Position numbers and translations under genes: made by a program | Source: Flavobacterium sp. | GTDB taxonomy: Bacteria; Bacteroidota; Bacteroidia; Flavobacteriales; Flavobacteriaceae | Direction: 5' to 3' | Length of the DNA stretch: 64,000 nt | NCBI RefSeq assembly: GCF_017744675.1 | Contig: NZ_JAGIAV010000004.1 | Span: forward strand, 1 to 64,000 | The notes under the pieces: generated by a model | Told to the model about the DNA's origin: nothing | What the model saw: only the letters and a program-made list of their open reading frames with translations | Database searches by the model: none | Shown here: positions 34,021-41,156 of the stretch, one piece after another | How the letters are laid out: each line of letters starts with the position of its first letter | Position numbering within the stretch: position 1 is the stretch's first letter

Positions 34021-35454
34021 TTAAATTCTGAGAATCAGATTTTCGTTGTTATCGTTTTCACGATTTATGACCTTTTTAGGAGCTTCCATCCAGCCTGTTT
34101 TATTGATTACAAACTTGAAAAGGTAAGTTTTGTCTTTTTCAAATTTCGATTTAGGAACAGATAGCTCAAATGTATTTTTGTTTTTCTGAATCATTTGATA
34201 GTTTTGGTCATTTGGATTCCATTCATCAAACGAGCCAGCTATTGAGACGCTTTTGACTAAACTAGGATTTAAATTTTTATCGTGTTCGTAAGTAAAGACA
34301 ACATTATTTCCGACAATTTTATAGCCATAAATACCAGTTTGCTTTTTGTTTTCGCTCAATAAGTCGTTAGAAAGCCTTACAATCGCTTCGCCTAATGCGT
34401 TGCCTGTATTTTCGTCACTGATATTAACAATAATTGAAATTCCTAATTGGCGTTCAGGATAAATTATAAGCATGTTTTGGGTTCCAAATGCGCCACCATG
34501 CTTCCAGCAGTTCTTTCCGTTTTCATCAACTTGGATATAGTCCCAAAAATATCCGTTCCATGTTGTTGGACTATCTAAGAGATTTCGCTGCGATTCTTGA
34601 ACAATTTTACTTTTTGTATTTAGTTCATAAGCAATAAATTTGGTCAAGTCACCTAAAGTAGATTTTAGCATTCCTGCGGCTCCCCAAAGATTGTCTGAAA
34701 TGGTTGGCATTAAAACTCCTTTTAAGTTGTAACCATGTGCAATAGCAATATTTGGACTCAAATTGATTCCGCTGGACTTCATATCGAGTTTAGAAAAAAT
34801 GTTTTCTTTCAAAAGCGATTCATAGCTTTTTTGATAAACATTTTCCAAGATATGAGCCGTAAGATTAAGGCTTCCGTTGCTGTATTTGAATTTAGTTCCA
34901 GGCAAAGTATCTAATTTCATACTTTTTAGATCTTCAAAAAACTTTTCTCTGCTGTACGTTTCGTCTACTTTTTTGAATGCTAAATAACTGCTGTCGTTTC
35001 GATTTTTTCGTAATTCGTCAGTATCTGGCAAATCTTTACTAAAACCTGTCCTAAAAGAGACCAAATCTTTAATTGTAATTGGTGTTCCGTTGTATTCTAA
35101 GTTCGGATAAGAACCAGTAAGGTATTTTCTAATATCATCGTCAGGATTTAATTTTCCTTCTAAAACTGCTTGAGCCGTTAGTAAACCAGTAAATAATTTG
35201 GTTATAGAGGCAACCTCAAAAATAGTATTGTTGTTGGCAATATTTTCTTTTCCTTTATCAATTTCACCATAATGTCTCGTGTAGGTTTTTCCGTTTTTGA
35301 TAACGCCTATAGAAATTGAATTGGCTTTTGATTTCTGGGAAAGAATAGAAGCAGTTTTATCCATGGCAATGAAAATACTTTTTTCTACAGTGTTTTTTTG
35401 AGCTGAAATTGAGAAACTGATGCACAAAACAAAAAGTGAAATATTTTTCTTCAT
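34021..35454 (-). CDS. secreted class C beta-lactamase-like serine hydrolase with C-terminal E-set domain
   Basis: This 477-residue protein has a signal peptide (ISLFVLCISFSISAQ), then a beta-lactamase/penicillin-binding-protein fold. The SxxK motif is S83-I-T-K86, the YSN motif is at 191-193, and HGGAFG is the third (HxG-type) motif, as in many class C-like esterases and peptidases. From about residue 385 a separate beta-domain follows (VSIAGSFDEWNPND ... DKTYLFKFVI), similar to AMPK/CBM48 glycogen-recognition domains. The substrate is not known, and antibiotic resistance should not be assumed. It is monocistronic. Confidence 0.82.
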   Translation of the reverse strand: MKKNISLFVLCISFSISAQKNTVEKSIFIAMDKTASILSQKSKANSISIGVIKNGKTYTRHYGEIDKGKENIANNNTIFEVASITKLFTGLLTAQAVLEGKLNPDDDIRKYLTGSYPNLEYNGTPITIKDLVSFRTGFSKDLPDTDELRKNRNDSSYLAFKKVDETYSREKFFEDLKSMKLDTLPGTKFKYSNGSLNLTAHILENVYQKSYESLLKENIFSKLDMKSSGINLSPNIAIAHGYNLKGVLMPTISDNLWGAAGMLKSTLGDLTKFIAYELNTKSKIVQESQRNLLDSPTTWNGYFWDYIQVDENGKNCWKHGGAFGTQNMLIIYPERQLGISIIVNISDENTGNALGEAIVRLSNDLLSENKKQTGIYGYKIVGNNVVFTYEHDKNLNPSLVKSVSIAGSFDEWNPNDQNYQMIQKNKNTFELSVPKSKFEKDKTYLFKFVINKTGWMEAPKKVINRENDNNENLILRI

Positions 35455-35534: not shown

Positions 35535-37397
35535 TTAAGCTTTCTTATTTTGCTTTTCCATTTCTTTCATATCTTTTTCATGCTGCTTCATGTCTTTCTC
35601 ATGCTGTTTCATATCCTTTGCATGTTGTTTCATGTCTTTTGCATGCTGTTTCATATCAAGCTCATATTGCTTCATATCTTGCTCGTATTGCTTCATGCTG
35701 TTTTCGTAATCTTTAGAATCAGTATCAAAATCAAACTTAAAATCATAACTGAACTTTTCCATGTTAGCACTGAATTTCTCCATCGCAATTTGATACTTTT
35801 CCATTTCTTTTTCATATACATCAGCTCTTTGCGACATGATAGCTTCAACCTGTTTTTCGTAAGCTTTCATTTGCGGTTCAAATGCTTCCATATGTTTCCC
35901 GAAAGCTTCCATGTCTTTTTCAAATTTAGCCATTGCTACTTTGTCTGATGGATTTTTTGGAGCAACAGGAGGTTTTGGCATTTTTGACATATCAATTGCT
36001 GGAACAGGAGGCATTGGTCCGGCAGGGAATACTGGTGGAGCTGGAGGTGCAGGAGGCGCAACATCAGTATCTCCAGGATTACGCACGATAACTCTTTCGT
36101 TTCTAATGATCATTGGCATTTTTACATTTCTATCGGTACTAATTACAATCGCTTTTGTACCGTTTTCATCAGTTCCAATTGCCAATTCGCAATCTTTTAT
36201 AGCTTGGTCTCCATCAATTTTGATCGTTTGTTTTTTACCAGAATCCGATTTTACTTTAATTTGAATCGCAGTCAATTCTTCTTTGGTATTTCTTTTTACA
36301 TCCGAAATTTCGACGTCAAGATTGTGCTTTGTTTTTAATTTTCCTGGCAATTCATTTAATTCCTTGTCAGTAGTGTTTTTTGTTATTTTGATGGTTTCCT
36401 CGGTATCTTTAATAGTATCTCTTTGAATAGAAGCAACTTCAGCTTGTTTCTTTTCTTGAGCAATGGTTTTTATTTGAAATAAAAGGACAAAAGCGCCTAG
36501 AGCAGGAATCACTGCCAAATATTTCCAGTAGTTTCTTTTCTTTGATTGATTTTTGTTTAACATGACAATTCGTTTTTTGATTAATGATTGATAAAAATGA
36601 TTGGTGATTGCAACACAAGTTTCATGTGTTGTTATTTTTAAAAGCGTGTATTGATACGCTTTTTTGTCGGCAATTTTTTTAGAAGCCTCCCTGTCTGCAA
36701 TAAATTCAAGGTTTTGTAAAATAGCTTTTTTATAAAGCCATACAATTGGATTAAACCAAAATAGGATACAGAAAATTCTAGAAATCAAAACATCTACAGT
36801 ATGTTTTTGGTCACTATGCACTTTTTCGTGTTCCAAAATGTTTTCTAATTCCGCTGCTGTATAAAGTGATGAGTTGTATACAATGTAATCGAAATAAGAA
36901 AAAGGAGCGATATTTTCATTAACATCAATAAATTTAAAATCTTCTTGCTGTTCAATTTTCTTTCCTTTCAAAACAGCATTTAGACTGTAAAAATCAAGCG
37001 CGAATTTGATCATAAAAGCTAAGAAACCAATTCCGTAAACTGCAACCAAAACTAAATTCCAATTGATTTCAAAATTTTCTTCTTCAACAACAGATACAGT
37101 TGTAGGTGTATAGTGAGTTTTGTAAGCTGCAACATCATAATTTGAAGTTGGAATACTCTCTAAATTAGCTGTCGTAGTTGTAATTATCGGATCTGAAGCA
37201 GGAGCAGGTGGTGCTTCTACCCAAATCACTTTTGTGTACACTACAAAAGGCAGCACTACAGAAGTGATTAATCCCGCAATTAAAAACCAGCGGCTGCTGT
37301 TGAAAAAAGTCTCTTTGCGAAGTAAAAAAATGTAAGCAAAATAAAACATTGCCAACAATCCGCTTGATTTTAGGATAAAAATGAAAAGTGCTTCCAT
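35535..37397 (-). CDS. M56 (BlaR1-like) sensor metallopeptidase with coiled heptad tail
   Basis: This 620-residue protein has four membrane helices in the N-terminal part and a zinc site HEKVH (His190, Glu191, His194), as in BlaR1/MecR1, which cleave BlaI-type repressors after sensing. The sensor part (about residues 330-420) has a beta-rich fold shared with its paralogue. The last 130 residues are unusual: 7-residue repeats such as AKDMKQH and EKDMKQH occur about six times near the end, predicting a coiled coil. It follows its BlaI repressor gene by 11 bp. Confidence 0.85.
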   Translation of the reverse strand: MEALFIFILKSSGLLAMFYFAYIFLLRKETFFNSSRWFLIAGLITSVVLPFVVYTKVIWVEAPPAPASDPIITTTTANLESIPTSNYDVAAYKTHYTPTTVSVVEEENFEINWNLVLVAVYGIGFLAFMIKFALDFYSLNAVLKGKKIEQQEDFKFIDVNENIAPFSYFDYIVYNSSLYTAAELENILEHEKVHSDQKHTVDVLISRIFCILFWFNPIVWLYKKAILQNLEFIADREASKKIADKKAYQYTLLKITTHETCVAITNHFYQSLIKKRIVMLNKNQSKKRNYWKYLAVIPALGAFVLLFQIKTIAQEKKQAEVASIQRDTIKDTEETIKITKNTTDKELNELPGKLKTKHNLDVEISDVKRNTKEELTAIQIKVKSDSGKKQTIKIDGDQAIKDCELAIGTDENGTKAIVISTDRNVKMPMIIRNERVIVRNPGDTDVAPPAPPAPPVFPAGPMPPVPAIDMSKMPKPPVAPKNPSDKVAMAKFEKDMEAFGKHMEAFEPQMKAYEKQVEAIMSQRADVYEKEMEKYQIAMEKFSANMEKFSYDFKFDFDTDSKDYENSMKQYEQDMKQYELDMKQHAKDMKQHAKDMKQHEKDMKQHEKDMKEMEKQNKKA

Positions 37398-37408
37398 AAC
37401 TATTTTGA

Positions 37409-37777
37409 TTATTTACCTGCTTTTGGATTTTCGATCATGTCTAAGATTTCACGCAATTCATCTGCTGAGATTTTTTCTTCTTTAGCAAAAAAAGAAACCA
37501 TGCTTTTGTACGAACTATTGAAATAATTGTCGATCGCAGTGCTCATAAAACCTTTTCTGTAATCTTCGATGCTAACAGCTGGATAATACTGGTGTGTATT
37601 TCCGAAAGCATTGTGCGCGACATAACCTTTTTCTTCCAGATTACGAACAATGGTAGACAAAGTGTTATAATGTGGCTGATCTTCTAAAATCTCTGCTTGA
37701 ATTTCTTTTACAAAAGCTTTTTTTAGCTTCCATAAAATATGCATGATTTCTTCTTCTTTATTGGTTAGCTTTTGCAT
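37409..37777 (-). CDS. BlaI/MecI/CopY family repressor
   Basis: This 122-residue protein is a winged helix-turn-helix repressor: EEEIMHILWKLKKAFVKEIQ, then the recognition segment HYNTLSTIVRNLEEKGYVAH, followed by a C-terminal dimerisation helix (KEEKISADELREILDMI). Its partner M56 protease would inactivate it. It is one of two near-identical copies; the other is at 39403. It lies 20 bp after the upstream M56 gene without a separate promoter, so both pairs probably share one transcript. Confidence 0.9.
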   Translation of the reverse strand: MQKLTNKEEEIMHILWKLKKAFVKEIQAEILEDQPHYNTLSTIVRNLEEKGYVAHNAFGNTHQYYPAVSIEDYRKGFMSTAIDNYFNSSYKSMVSFFAKEEKISADELREILDMIENPKAGK

Positions 37778-37797: not shown

Positions 37798-39396
37798 TTA
37801 GTTTTTAGTTTCAATTTCAATTACTCCATTTGCGGCTTTGCTTCCGTATTTTCCAGTTGCATTAGTTCCTGTAAAAATACTAACAGATTCGATATTATCA
37901 TTTGGAATACTTTTTACATCAAAACCTGCGGGCATTTCTTCTCCGTTTACAATTACAAGTGAAGAGCTAATTTTTATATTCGTTTTTGCGCCATTTGAAA
38001 CAGCGACTCTTGAACCTCCATCAGTCGTAATAACTTTAGTGTTATTATCAGTGTTTACAATTACAGTAGTGCTAGTATTTGCGCTAGTATCACTGTTAGT
38101 TTTTGTACTAGTAATAGAATTAGTGTTAACATGGGTTTCTGTATTAGTAGTTGCGTTTTTAATTTTTGTAGTGTTGTCATTTAAGGTTAGTTTTTTGCGA
38201 ACCACTATTTTTTCATCAGTAGTCTGAATGCCTGCTTTCTTCTTTCCATCTTTATCTGTAATGACAATTATTCCAAAATCTTTAATGGTTTTGTCTCCAA
38301 TTTGTATAGATTGAGATTTATCTTTTCCATTAATTACATCAACTTTAATAGAAGTTAATTCGTTTTCTGAGTTTCTTTTGATGTCAGAAACTTTAATATC
38401 AATATGATGAATTGATTTTAAGTTCTCTTTAAGCTCTTTTAAATCTGCATCTGTAGAGTTTTTGGTGATTTTGTATACATCAACAGACTCCATTTCTTTT
38501 GAAACTGCTTTTGCATTCTTGTTCTGTCTCTCTTTTGCAATTACTTCAATTTGAAATAATAATACAAAAGCTGCTAAAGCTGGAATTACAGCATAATACT
38601 TCCAGGAATTCCTCTTTTTTGATTGATTTTTGTTTAACATGACGATTCGTTTTTTGATTAATGATTGATAAAAATGATTGGTGATTGCAACACAATTTTC
38701 GTGTGTTGTTATTTTTAAAAGCGTGTATTGATAGGCTTTTTTGTCTAAAAGTTTTTTAGCGGCCTCGCTGTCGGCAATAAACTCAAGATTCTGAGTAATT
38801 GCTTTTTTGTAAAGCCAAACGATTGGGTTGAACCAGAAAATAATGCTAAATATTCTCGAAATCAAAACATCTAAAGTATGGTTTTGATCACTGTGCACTT
38901 TTTCATGTTCCAAAATGTTTTCCAATTCTGAAGCGGTGTAAAGTGATGAGTTGTACACGATATATTCAAAATAGGAGAAAGGAGCAATGTTTTCGTTTAT
39001 GTCTATAAATTTAAAATCGGCTTGCTGTTTGATCTTTTTTCCTTTTATAATAGAATTTAAACTGTAAAAATCAATTGCTAGTTTTATAGCAAATATTATA
39101 AGTCCGATGCCATAAAGCCCAAGAATAAAATAATTCCAATTAAAATCTGCTGATTCTTGTTGTGCATCATTTATTAAGGAAGTTTGGATATTGGAATTAA
39201 AGTCGGTAGAAGCGTTAATCCATATTACTTTAGTATAAGTCAGTAATGGTAAAATTACCGATACAACCAAACCCGACAGCAAAAACCATCTGTTGCTGTT
39301 GAAAAATGTTTCCTTGCGCAGTAAAAAGAAATAAGCGCAGTAAAACATAAGCATTAAACTGCTTGATTTGGCGATATAAATGAAAACAGCTTCCAT
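37798..39396 (-). CDS. M56 (BlaR1-like) metallopeptidase with TonB-plug-like C-terminus
   Basis: This 532-residue membrane protein has the same layout as its neighbour: four membrane helices and zinc site HEKVH (His164, Glu165, His168). After a sensor-like region and a Thr/Asn-rich linker (TNSDTSANTSTTVIV) it ends in a segment resembling the plug of TonB-dependent receptors: VVIVNGEEMPAGFDVKSIP, NIESVSIFTGTNATGKYGSK and ANGVIEIETK. This fusion is known in Bacteroidota, but the signal it reads is not. It follows its BlaI gene by 6 bp. Confidence 0.85.
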   Translation of the reverse strand: MEAVFIYIAKSSSLMLMFYCAYFFLLRKETFFNSNRWFLLSGLVVSVILPLLTYTKVIWINASTDFNSNIQTSLINDAQQESADFNWNYFILGLYGIGLIIFAIKLAIDFYSLNSIIKGKKIKQQADFKFIDINENIAPFSYFEYIVYNSSLYTASELENILEHEKVHSDQNHTLDVLISRIFSIIFWFNPIVWLYKKAITQNLEFIADSEAAKKLLDKKAYQYTLLKITTHENCVAITNHFYQSLIKKRIVMLNKNQSKKRNSWKYYAVIPALAAFVLLFQIEVIAKERQNKNAKAVSKEMESVDVYKITKNSTDADLKELKENLKSIHHIDIKVSDIKRNSENELTSIKVDVINGKDKSQSIQIGDKTIKDFGIIVITDKDGKKKAGIQTTDEKIVVRKKLTLNDNTTKIKNATTNTETHVNTNSITSTKTNSDTSANTSTTVIVNTDNNTKVITTDGGSRVAVSNGAKTNIKISSSLVIVNGEEMPAGFDVKSIPNDNIESVSIFTGTNATGKYGSKAANGVIEIETKN

Positions 39397-39402
39397 AACC
39401 GA

Positions 39403-39771
39403 TTATTTTTTTTCGTTTTTATTTTCGATCATTGATAAAATCTCACGCAATTCGTCTGCTGAAATTTTTTCTTCTTTGGCAAAAAAGGAAACCATGCTTT
39501 TATAAGAACTATTAAAGTAATTATCAATTGCGGTTTTCATAAATCCTTTTCTGTAATCTTCAATCGGCACAATCGGAAAGTATTGATGTGTATTTCCGAA
39601 AGCATTGTGCCCAACGTATCCTTTTTCTTCCAGATTACGCACGATAGTCGATAATGTGTTGTAATGTGGCTGATCTTCTGTGATTTCGGCTTGAATTTCT
39701 TTTACAAAAGCTTTTTTAAGCTTCCATAAAATCATCATGATTTCTTCTTCTTTGTTTGTTAACTTCTGCAT
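39403..39771 (-). CDS. BlaI/MecI/CopY family repressor, first in the operon
   Basis: This 122-residue winged-helix repressor is nearly identical to the copy at 37409 (shared EEEIM.ILWKLKKAFVKEIQ and HYNTLSTIVRNLEEKGYVGH). It is the first gene of the five-part operator/BlaI/M56/BlaI/M56 unit, and lies just 10 bp from the probable transcription start. Its own operator should be the palindrome array at 39798-39853, so autorepression is likely. Confidence 0.9.
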   Translation of the reverse strand: MQKLTNKEEEIMMILWKLKKAFVKEIQAEITEDQPHYNTLSTIVRNLEEKGYVGHNAFGNTHQYFPIVPIEDYRKGFMKTAIDNYFNSSYKSMVSFFAKEEKISADELREILSMIENKNEKK

Positions 39772-39788: not shown

Positions 39789-39853
39789 CAAACCTACAAC
39801 TATTTTTTTAGTTACACAACTATAAAAATAGTTATTTAACTAAAAATTAAGTT
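39789..39853 (-). promoter_or_regulatory. promoter with a triple operator for the BlaI/M56 cluster
   Basis: On the minus strand TAGGTTTG (plus 39789-39796) is a -7 box, with TTG at plus 39817-39819 after a 20-bp spacer. Three dyads with half sites AACTA and TAGTT (N6 between; third copy AAGTT) start at 39798, 39818 and 39838, exactly 20 bp apart. The first fills the spacer between the promoter boxes, the second covers the TTG, and the third lies upstream. This is a textbook repression layout. Confidence 0.78.
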
Positions 39854-39938: not shown

Positions 39939-41156
39939 TTAGGAAATCTTCTCGTTTAGTAGAGCATTCCTAATCCAAATGCAGCATCCTGTTGCAACCA
40001 CGCCAATACAAGCCATAAAAAGCCAGTTGATTTGGTAACCAAATCTAGTAATGATTTCAAATCCCAATTTAGAACTGATAATATGGGCAAGACTAAAACT
40101 CATGGTATAAAGCGCCATGTATCGGCCTTCTTGCCCGCGAGGTGCTCGACTTAAGGCAAATGCATTAGAAAAGGGGAAAGTAAGGACTTCTCCAATAGAA
40201 ATGCAAATCATACTCACAACCAGGATTCCTGCCCAAAAATTAATAAGAAGCAAAAAGAAGCTGCTCGCCATAACAAAAGATCCAACGATAATGATTCGAA
40301 TCTTTGGAAAAGCTTTTCGTTCCAAAAATCCAACTGTTGGCATTTCTAGTGTAAAGATTAAAAGACCGTTTAAAGTCATTAAAAGACCTGTTTGGAATTC
40401 GCTTAAGCCAAATTTTTCATTATGATATAAAGGAAGAGTGGTAAATAGCTGGAAGAAAATCATTGCCGTGATAAAGCTTACGAACAAGAAAACCCAGAAA
40501 ATTCGATCATGAAATACCGATTTTACATCTGATGCGCTTTCTGTTTTATCGCCATGAGTTGCTTTTTTCTTTTCTTTTACCAATAAAGCAAAAATCGAAA
40601 TAGAAATAATACAAGAAGCTCCGTCAACCCAGAAAAGTCCAGAATATCCTATTCCCATAATAATTAAACCTCCAAGCGCTGGTCCTGTGGCAAAACCTAA
40701 ATTTACAGCCAGACGAACAAGTGTAAGGGCGCGAGTACGATTTTCTGGTTTGGCATAAGCGCCTAATGACACAAACATGGCTGGACGAAACATATCTGCA
40801 ATGGTCATAAGTAAAAACATGGCAATGCAAAGATGCCAGAAAGTGGTGATATATTGCACAAAAAATAGCGCAATTCCACTGGTAAACAAACTAAAAATCA
40901 TGATTTTATAAAATCCGATTTTATCTGATAATTTACCTCCAAGCCAAGAACCCAACATCGATCCAAAACCAAAAGCCACCATAATCCATCCAACTTGATT
41001 GTAAGTAAAATGTAAGTCTTCTTTTAAATATTTGGATAAAAAAGGAAGAACCATTGTCCCAGCGCGGTTAATAAAAGTAATGATGGCAAGAATCCAAACT
41101 TCTCTGGTAAAACCTCGAAAGTTGTTAATGTAGTGGGTTAGGGCGTTTTTAAGCAT
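39939..41156 (-). CDS. MFS efflux-type permease
   Basis: This 405-residue inner-membrane protein has 12 predicted helices and the MFS signature GSWLGGKLSDKIGFYK between helices 2 and 3. The closing ALLNEK tail is cytosolic. It resembles the DHA1-like bacterial drug-efflux families (MdtG/YceL type); the substrate is unknown. It is transcribed divergently from the DUF1684 gene, with an inverted repeat (41178-41197) and a TAACTTTG box between them. Confidence 0.8.
   Translation of the reverse strand: MLKNALTHYINNFRGFTREVWILAIITFINRAGTMVLPFLSKYLKEDLHFTYNQVGWIMVAFGFGSMLGSWLGGKLSDKIGFYKIMIFSLFTSGIALFFVQYITTFWHLCIAMFLLMTIADMFRPAMFVSLGAYAKPENRTRALTLVRLAVNLGFATGPALGGLIIMGIGYSGLFWVDGASCIISISIFALLVKEKKKATHGDKTESASDVKSVFHDRIFWVFLFVSFITAMIFFQLFTTLPLYHNEKFGLSEFQTGLLMTLNGLLIFTLEMPTVGFLERKAFPKIRIIIVGSFVMASSFFLLLINFWAGILVVSMICISIGEVLTFPFSNAFALSRAPRGQEGRYMALYTMSFSLAHIISSKLGFEIITRFGYQINWLFMACIGVVATGCCIWIRNALLNEKIS

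Follow-up and report, generated by a model that had tools for sequence, protein, structure and literature searches.

Among the closest described systems are the BlaI/MecI-BlaR1/MecR1 pairs of Staphylococcus aureus, in which a PF03965 repressor regulates its own genes and is cleaved by a membrane protease with an HExxH motif (PMC9834060, PMC3305447); BlaR1 cuts BlaI directly at the bond N101-F102 (PMC9834060). The textbook operator core of the BlaI/MecI/CopY repressors is TACANNTGTA (PMC7253601). In Bacillus licheniformis three BlaI operators, OP1 to OP3, control the bla genes and lie between divergent operons (PMC3305447). The CopY/CopR repressors, assigned by homology to the same family, have duplicated palindromic boxes before an operon, are metal-responsive and have the consensus RNYKACANNTGTMRNY, with two 21-base repeats within 61 bp (PMC7253601). 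For BlaI_0696 and BlaI_1845 of Clostridium thermocellum, studied by DAP-seq, gel shift and site scanning, the operators are ordered paired inverted repeats; the targets carry two inverted-repeat pairs (four protomers), other genes have at most a single site, and the regulons are tiny and mainly autoregulatory (PMC8457756). A mycobacterial BlaI motif exists in figure form (PMC12565901), and BlaR homologues are treated in a further account whose available text gives no operator (PMC9045261). Among the matches listed in the open-licence articles searched, no BlaI operator was found for Bacteroidetes.

Three phased dyads in front of blaI1

The window, meaning the whole 64,000-nucleotide stretch of Flavobacterium DNA that was analysed, holds a duplicated BlaI-M56 gene cluster preceded by three dyads of the form AACTA-N6-TAGTT. 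The features are as follows.

39838-39853, no strand: dyad 3, distal, AACTAAAAATTAAGTT, 1 mismatch
39818-39833, no strand: dyad 2, middle, AACTATAAAAATAGTT, 0 mismatches, overlapping the -33 TTG
39819-39817, minus strand: -33 box TTG, read from the sequence, its TT common to the end of dyad 2
39798-39813, no strand: dyad 1, promoter-proximal, AACTA-N6-TAGTT, AACTATTTTTTTAGTT, 0 mismatches
39796-39789, minus strand: -7 box TAGGTTTG (TAnnTTTG), 1 bp past dyad 1
39403-39771, minus strand: BlaI1 repressor (P0001, 122 aa), PF03965 at E 8e-30, with MecI homology and a predicted fold matching MecI
37798-39396, minus strand: M56_1 (P0003), BlaR1-like metalloprotease, HEKVH at residue 164 and EFIAD at 205
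37409-37777, minus strand: BlaI2 repressor (P0002), PF03965 at E 5e-31, 90% identical to BlaI1
35535-37397, minus strand: M56_2 (P0004), BlaR1-like metalloprotease, HEKVH at residue 190 and EFIAD at 231
34021-35454, minus strand: serine hydrolase (PF00144 by domain search), the next gene in the same direction and a possible output gene

The dyads follow each other at a period of exactly 20 bp in the window sequence, and a mismatch scan of the window bore out the starts given by the first-pass annotation, 39798 and 39818 (both exact) and 39838 (one mismatch). The minus-strand promoter reads TTG-N20-TAGGTTTG, with a -33 TTG and a -7 TAnnTTTG that we take to be promoter boxes from the Bacteroidetes promoter consensus. 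The spacer between them, 39797-39816, is filled by dyad 1, which lies wholly inside it as had been annotated, and dyad 2, which had been placed on the -33 TTG, indeed ends on the TT of that box. The period had also been described as close to two helical turns; 20 bp amount to 1.9 turns at 10.5 bp per turn, so that successive copies come to lie on one face of the helix within about 34 degrees. Around ACTA/TAGT the gap inside a dyad equals the gap between dyads, both being 6 bp, which places a half-site every 10 bp.

The dyad centres are AT-only in the window, and ACTA-N6-TAGT fits the outer part of ACTACANNTGTAGT without its CA/TG. The TACANNTGTA core is absent from the window dyads, the outer ACTA/TAGT being kept and the inner CA/TG missing. 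Compared with S. aureus, the operator thus keeps ACTA/TAGT without the TACA/TGTA core, and the genes form a tandem-duplicated operon rather than a divergon. With C. thermocellum the locus has in common that BlaI stands beside BlaR1-type genes and that the half-sites there, GTCTAT and GACTAT, contain CTA (PMC8457756); it differs in that the inverted repeats of C. thermocellum, a member of another phylum, are five nucleotides apart, and the available text of that account gives neither a 20-bp period nor a promoter phase (PMC8457756).

The operon and its proteins

The gaps between the genes of BlaI1, M56_1, BlaI2 and M56_2 are only 6, 20 and 11 bp, and the four therefore probably form one operon, with the hydrolase gene following after a further 80 bp. 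No array of its own was found upstream of BlaI2. PF03965, the Penicillinase_R winged-helix family, scores above its cut-off over the whole protein in both repressors, and BlaI matches MecI in sequence at E 1e-9. A MecI-like fold is predicted, the best matches of the BlaI1 model being MecI and BlaI together with DNA complexes, including the MecI-mecA operator complex 2d45; the pLDDT is 85-94 in the winged-helix part and 57-72 in the remainder with its loose tail, the C-terminal half being of low confidence (57-61). The recognition helix HYNTLSTIVRNLEEKG is identical in BlaI1 and BlaI2 and the proteins are 90% identical, so either of them could bind the same site.

Residue F97 of BlaI1 aligns with the Phe at P1' of the N101-F102 bond cleaved in S. 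aureus (PMC9834060). Phe occupies this position in 21 of 27 relatives (M, W, I or L in the others), and the preceding P1 residue is Phe instead of Asn, as in 19 of the 27. From this alignment a BlaR1-type cut site at F97 is plausible. Both M56 proteins exceed the PF05569 cut-off and have HExxH with a distal Glu (HEKVH, EFIAD). Pfam and NCBIfam searches at E 0.001 showed no penicillin-binding domain in either protein, a difference from the S. aureus sensor, and the blaR1_generic model, which matches the protease part only, reaches 35-36 bits where its cut-off is 400. M56_1 ends in a TonB-receptor plug and SusC/RagA signature, both just below the curated cut-offs (TIGR04057 at E 2.7e-9, with 36.6 bits against a cut-off of 46.2), and the tail of M56_2 is repetitive. 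The NCBIfam models nearest to the hydrolase are AmpH and class C beta-lactamase, both below their cut-offs. For Porphyromonas gingivalis, tables on hemin-dependent methylation and expression list a BlaI/MecI/CopY gene and a neighbouring M56 gene, which may offer a clue to the signal; no operator is given there (PMC10470040).

The pair and not the single dyad is specific

Single dyads are not significant as sites in the window, where six with at most one mismatch were found against 4.1 expected and 21 of 100 shuffles reached at least as many. The phased array is beyond chance. The triple at period 20 has one mismatch in total, and the best triple per shuffle had 8 to 11 in 300 dinucleotide shuffles, or 7 to 10 when the period was left free between 16 and 40.

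A genome scan for AACTA-N6-TAGTT had been proposed as a means of finding the regulon. In the whole 5.5-Mb source genome the exact motif has nine sites, fewer than the 36 of a reversed-pattern control. None of the seven exact dyads outside the window array is at a BlaI gene; six lie inside long reading frames and one before a sigma-factor-like frame. The single-dyad scan was therefore rejected as not enriched. The site at the sigma-factor-like frame (L007:1501, G000:C13:1200279) is a single exact dyad 3 bp before the first Met. Specificity lies in the 20-bp pair only, not in the single dyad.

The 20-bp pair with at most one mismatch occurs at exactly two promoters of the source genome, both of BlaI-M56 operons. 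The second (G000:C15:381864) has three dyads in the same 20-bp steps before BlaI3-M56, and BlaI3 is 42% identical. Two further places hold a pair with two mismatches, one inside a 337-codon frame (L053) and one outside any frame above 150 codons (L054). No array was found upstream of a BlaI4-M56 cassette (G000:C10:918117); this gene may lack a promoter of its own, because a 321-codon frame upstream runs on past its start.

Conservation in the genus

The close named relatives of the source genome belong to Flavobacterium, and 150 genomes of this genus were scanned for two exact ACTA/TAGT dyads with a free gap of 0-28 bp. At least one pair was found in 108 of the 150. The pairs, added up by hand, come to 177, and those of the reversed control to 48. 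Among the matches listed, 75 of the 177, the gap was 6 bp (period 20) in 67 by hand count. Of 57 loci inspected, 47 of the 50 with period 20 adjoin BlaI, and so do three of the seven with other spacing, two of these being 40-bp pairs with a one-mismatch middle copy.

Named BlaI relatives, the best 80 of 544, were examined from the side of the gene. Within 250 bp, 52 of these 80 have two exact dyads and 13 have three, at period 20; the rest comprise two with an exact 40-bp pair, three with one exact dyad and ten with none. When one mismatch was allowed all 80 have a pair, 70 directly upstream and ten before the first BlaI of the operon. For these ten exceptions the exact pair lies 2.0-2.35 kb upstream of the BlaI gene, as would suit copies that stand second in the operon, after an M56 gene.

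In an alignment of 69 upstream regions of the named relatives, chosen for having a pair with at most one mismatch, ACTA/TAGT is conserved at 97-100% per base in dyad 1 and at 94-100% in dyad 2. In dyad 3 the promoter-side TAGT is conserved and the distal half is degenerate (columns -20 to -7). Conservation of the -7 box comes close to that of the half-sites (TA 97-100%, TTT 96-100%, G 97%), the G of the -33 TTG stands at 77%, and the N6 centres are mostly A or T.

Some arrays of the genus stand at other genes. One of period 20 (L067:3027, G111) immediately precedes the gene of a PF00144 serine hydrolase, and a BlaI-M56 array lies 24 kb away; this hydrolase is a distant relative of the one in the window, with 30% identity over 230 aligned columns. 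In another genome (G123) GLPGLI-like (Porph_ging) clusters are preceded by two arrays of period 20 (L074:3024, L075:3022), which lie 20 kb from each other, the Porph_ging match at L074 being just below the Pfam cut-off, and no BlaI was found within 3 kb of either. By their arrays these clusters are candidate BlaI targets. The source genome lends the GLPGLI link no support, as no dyad with at most one mismatch was found near the start of its single GLPGLI gene (L164), and the link is drawn from G123, the one other genome.

Conservation in the class and phylum

Exact 20-bp pairs were found in 62 of 395 Bacteroidia genomes and in 42 of 196 genera, compared with one genome for the reversed-pattern control. 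They occur at 68 places, and 64 of these adjoin BlaI (26 of 29 and 37 of 38 new loci, plus the window). Genus and class scans alike require exact ACTA/TAGT, so degenerate arrays are under-counted, and the BlaI neighbours were called by phmmer with five queries from the source genome, which could miss divergent BlaI proteins. In one genome (G468) the array runs to five dyads, all in phase. With the gap left free, 247 class genomes gave 58 pairs, and the reversed control, all gaps taken together, gave 68; the pattern is not enriched as a whole, and the excess is at a gap of 6 bp alone. Period 20 accounts for 36 of the 58 free-gap pairs, and the next commonest period, 33 bp, for four (hand count). 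In 89 genomes from other classes of the phylum no array was found, an absence that is weak because it may reflect base composition.

Beyond the genus the array is followed by a -7 box in part of the promoters. A strict TAnnTTTG stands after it in 24 of 58 class promoters outside the genus, in 22 of them 0-2 bp behind the last half-site; the strict box is absent from the other 34, many of which have looser versions by eye. In 23 of the 58 (hand count; e.g. L167, L192, L197, L225, L230) the first Met of the BlaI frame comes only 12-15 bp after the last half-site; where the -7 box is strict, the distance from it is about 4-5 bp. Because the first Met is so close behind the -7 box, these promoters suggest leaderless blaI mRNAs in the class. 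In one family (f41: L211, L213, L214, L215, L218, L220, L222) the promoter is flanked by operators on both sides, since an extra ACTA-N6-TAGT dyad follows the -7 region; its distance from the last dyad of the array, in the cases measured, is 28-33 bp, and some of the free-gap class pairs with a period other than 20 are these extra dyads beyond the -7 box.

Several class arrays have other neighbours. The array of L172 precedes a MacB/FtsX permease gene, with BlaI 2.6 kb behind the array on the same strand, and that of L176, at period 20, goes with TonB_C and is not beside BlaI. A period-20 array at L232:3025 (G478) stands about 5 bp before the gene of a TonB_C protein, beside a second TonB-like frame. 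The exact array of L207 lies between unrelated frames, and that of L183 (G503) between two unrelated genes, where it resembles an inverted-repeat terminator by eye.

Recognition helix and operator

For a sample not chosen for arrays, PF03965 was searched in 70 class genomes, which gave 31 strong hits in 14 genomes, seven of these with several BlaI copies. A period-20 pair precedes 8 of the 31 in exact form and 14 with at most two mismatches. Grouped by hand, the pair stands before 10 of 14 BlaIs with a YN[TS] helix and before 4 of 17 with other helices, and among the array-bearing class BlaIs the YN[TS] helix is present in 52 of 58. Of the four YN[TS] BlaIs that have no such pair, two are second in their operon, one (G187, YNT-type) has exact dyads at 23 bp and one has AACTG/CAGTT-like dyads at 20 bp. 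Period 20 is thus the mode and not a law.

A motif-free scan found CTACA-NN-TGTAG, together with a second, degenerate copy 20 bp away, before three BlaIs with a TTT helix from two genomes (G180b, G180c, G170b). Four BlaIs with a GYTT[TI]LK helix (L260, L264, L265, L266; G150, G189, G207) have perfect TACGA-N6-TCGTA pairs at 24, 27, 30 and 31 bp. The four non-YN[TS] BlaIs with an ACTA array at two mismatches or fewer include G180b and G180c, which are of the CTACA type; G170b and the four GYTT[TI]LK proteins have other clear dyads, and an operator was named for none of the remaining 8 of the 17. Judged from these sequences the array is the mark of a single BlaI subfamily, and helix and operator appear to vary together.

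Proposed mechanism and alternative readings

The three dyads are very probably sites where the repressor shuts off its own genes, to judge from their position and company. The fuller reading, to which we give a probability of about 0.87, is that they would form an autoregulatory operator array of BlaI1/BlaI2 that is bound cooperatively and released through the M56 proteins. One BlaI dimer would sit on each AACTA-N6-TAGTT dyad, and since there is a half-site every 10 bp with both gaps at 6 bp, two or three dimers could lie side by side in successive major grooves along one DNA face without a break. Both the -33 box and the -33/-7 spacer would be occupied by them, which would keep RNA polymerase off, and autorepression is predicted to be tight. 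The repressed unit would be BlaI1-M56_1-BlaI2-M56_2 and probably also the serine hydrolase. On an envelope signal, sensed by the M56 membrane proteases, BlaI would be cleaved and the operon derepressed. The first-pass annotation had called the dyads a readable operator array for BlaI, and the comparison strongly supports this, binding being what we infer from it.

One rival to this reading concerns the contact between dimers. The dyads could be BlaI operators on which dimers act singly, the period merely mirroring the distance between the two boxes, and we regard this as unlikely though deserving of serious weight. The TTG-to-TA spacing here is exactly 20 nt, so one site per box would give the period without cooperativity, and elsewhere the spacing varies, with the TACGA-N6-TCGTA pairs of the other subfamily at 24-31 bp and the YNT-type pair of G187 at 23 bp. 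Against it, the distal dyad 3 holds the 20-bp step where no promoter box was seen, and the five dyads of G468 keep the same phase. That another regulator binds the dyads and controls the operon is much less probable still, and we consider it very improbable: the CA..TG of the textbook core TACANNTGTA (PMC7253601) is indeed missing from the motif, but nearly all exact class arrays adjoin a BlaI gene (64 of 68), the helix tracks the motif, with YN[TS] in 52 of the 58 array bearers, and the TTT-helix BlaIs have their own CTACA-NN-TGTAG at the 20-bp step, the second copy degenerate.

The palindromes might also be terminator hairpins of the upstream MFS gene, whose frame lies on the operon's strand and stops at 39939, or chance repeats in AT-rich DNA, and the terminator-like look of L183 agrees with the former. 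A search for terminator-like sites found none, however, the 300 shuffles never matched the triple, and in the aligned relatives it is ACTA/TAGT and the promoter boxes that are conserved, not a stem. On the alignment, the shuffles and the terminator search both the terminator and the chance readings were rejected, their chance of being right being negligible.

Meaning of the array

Paired BlaI operators were already known from C. thermocellum (PMC8457756). Among the matches listed in the open-licence literature searched, the AACTA-N6-TAGTT motif, the 20-bp period, the promoter phase and the spread in Bacteroidia were not found, and to that extent the motif, its period and its phase with the promoter in Bacteroidia are new. 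The candidate targets outside BlaI loci and the C-termini of the M56 proteins suggest that the signal is not a beta-lactam captured by a penicillin-binding sensor. Taken further, and held only tentatively, the arrays may reflect a cis-regulatory grammar of Bacteroidia in which BlaIs of the YNT type tile one DNA face at 10-bp intervals between half-sites, in phase with the -33 and -7 boxes, and in which M56 sensors have acquired other C-termini in place of the penicillin-binding domain; an envelope-stress regulon would then extend beyond the BlaI operon itself to serine hydrolases, GLPGLI proteins, TonB and MacB-type permeases, with a helix-to-operator code of YNT for AACTA/TAGTT at 20 bp, TTT for CTACA/TGTAG at 20 bp and GYTT[TI]LK for TACGA/TCGTA at 24-31 bp.

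Strong BlaI genes are present in 14 of the 70 class genomes sampled, and the searched open-licence literature yielded no paper on their DNA targets there. As the pattern is nearly confined to BlaI promoters, the autoregulated cassettes of this subfamily and candidate targets can be listed from sequence alone, and it also supplies natural pairs of operator and repressor on which to test what DNA a BlaI helix selects.
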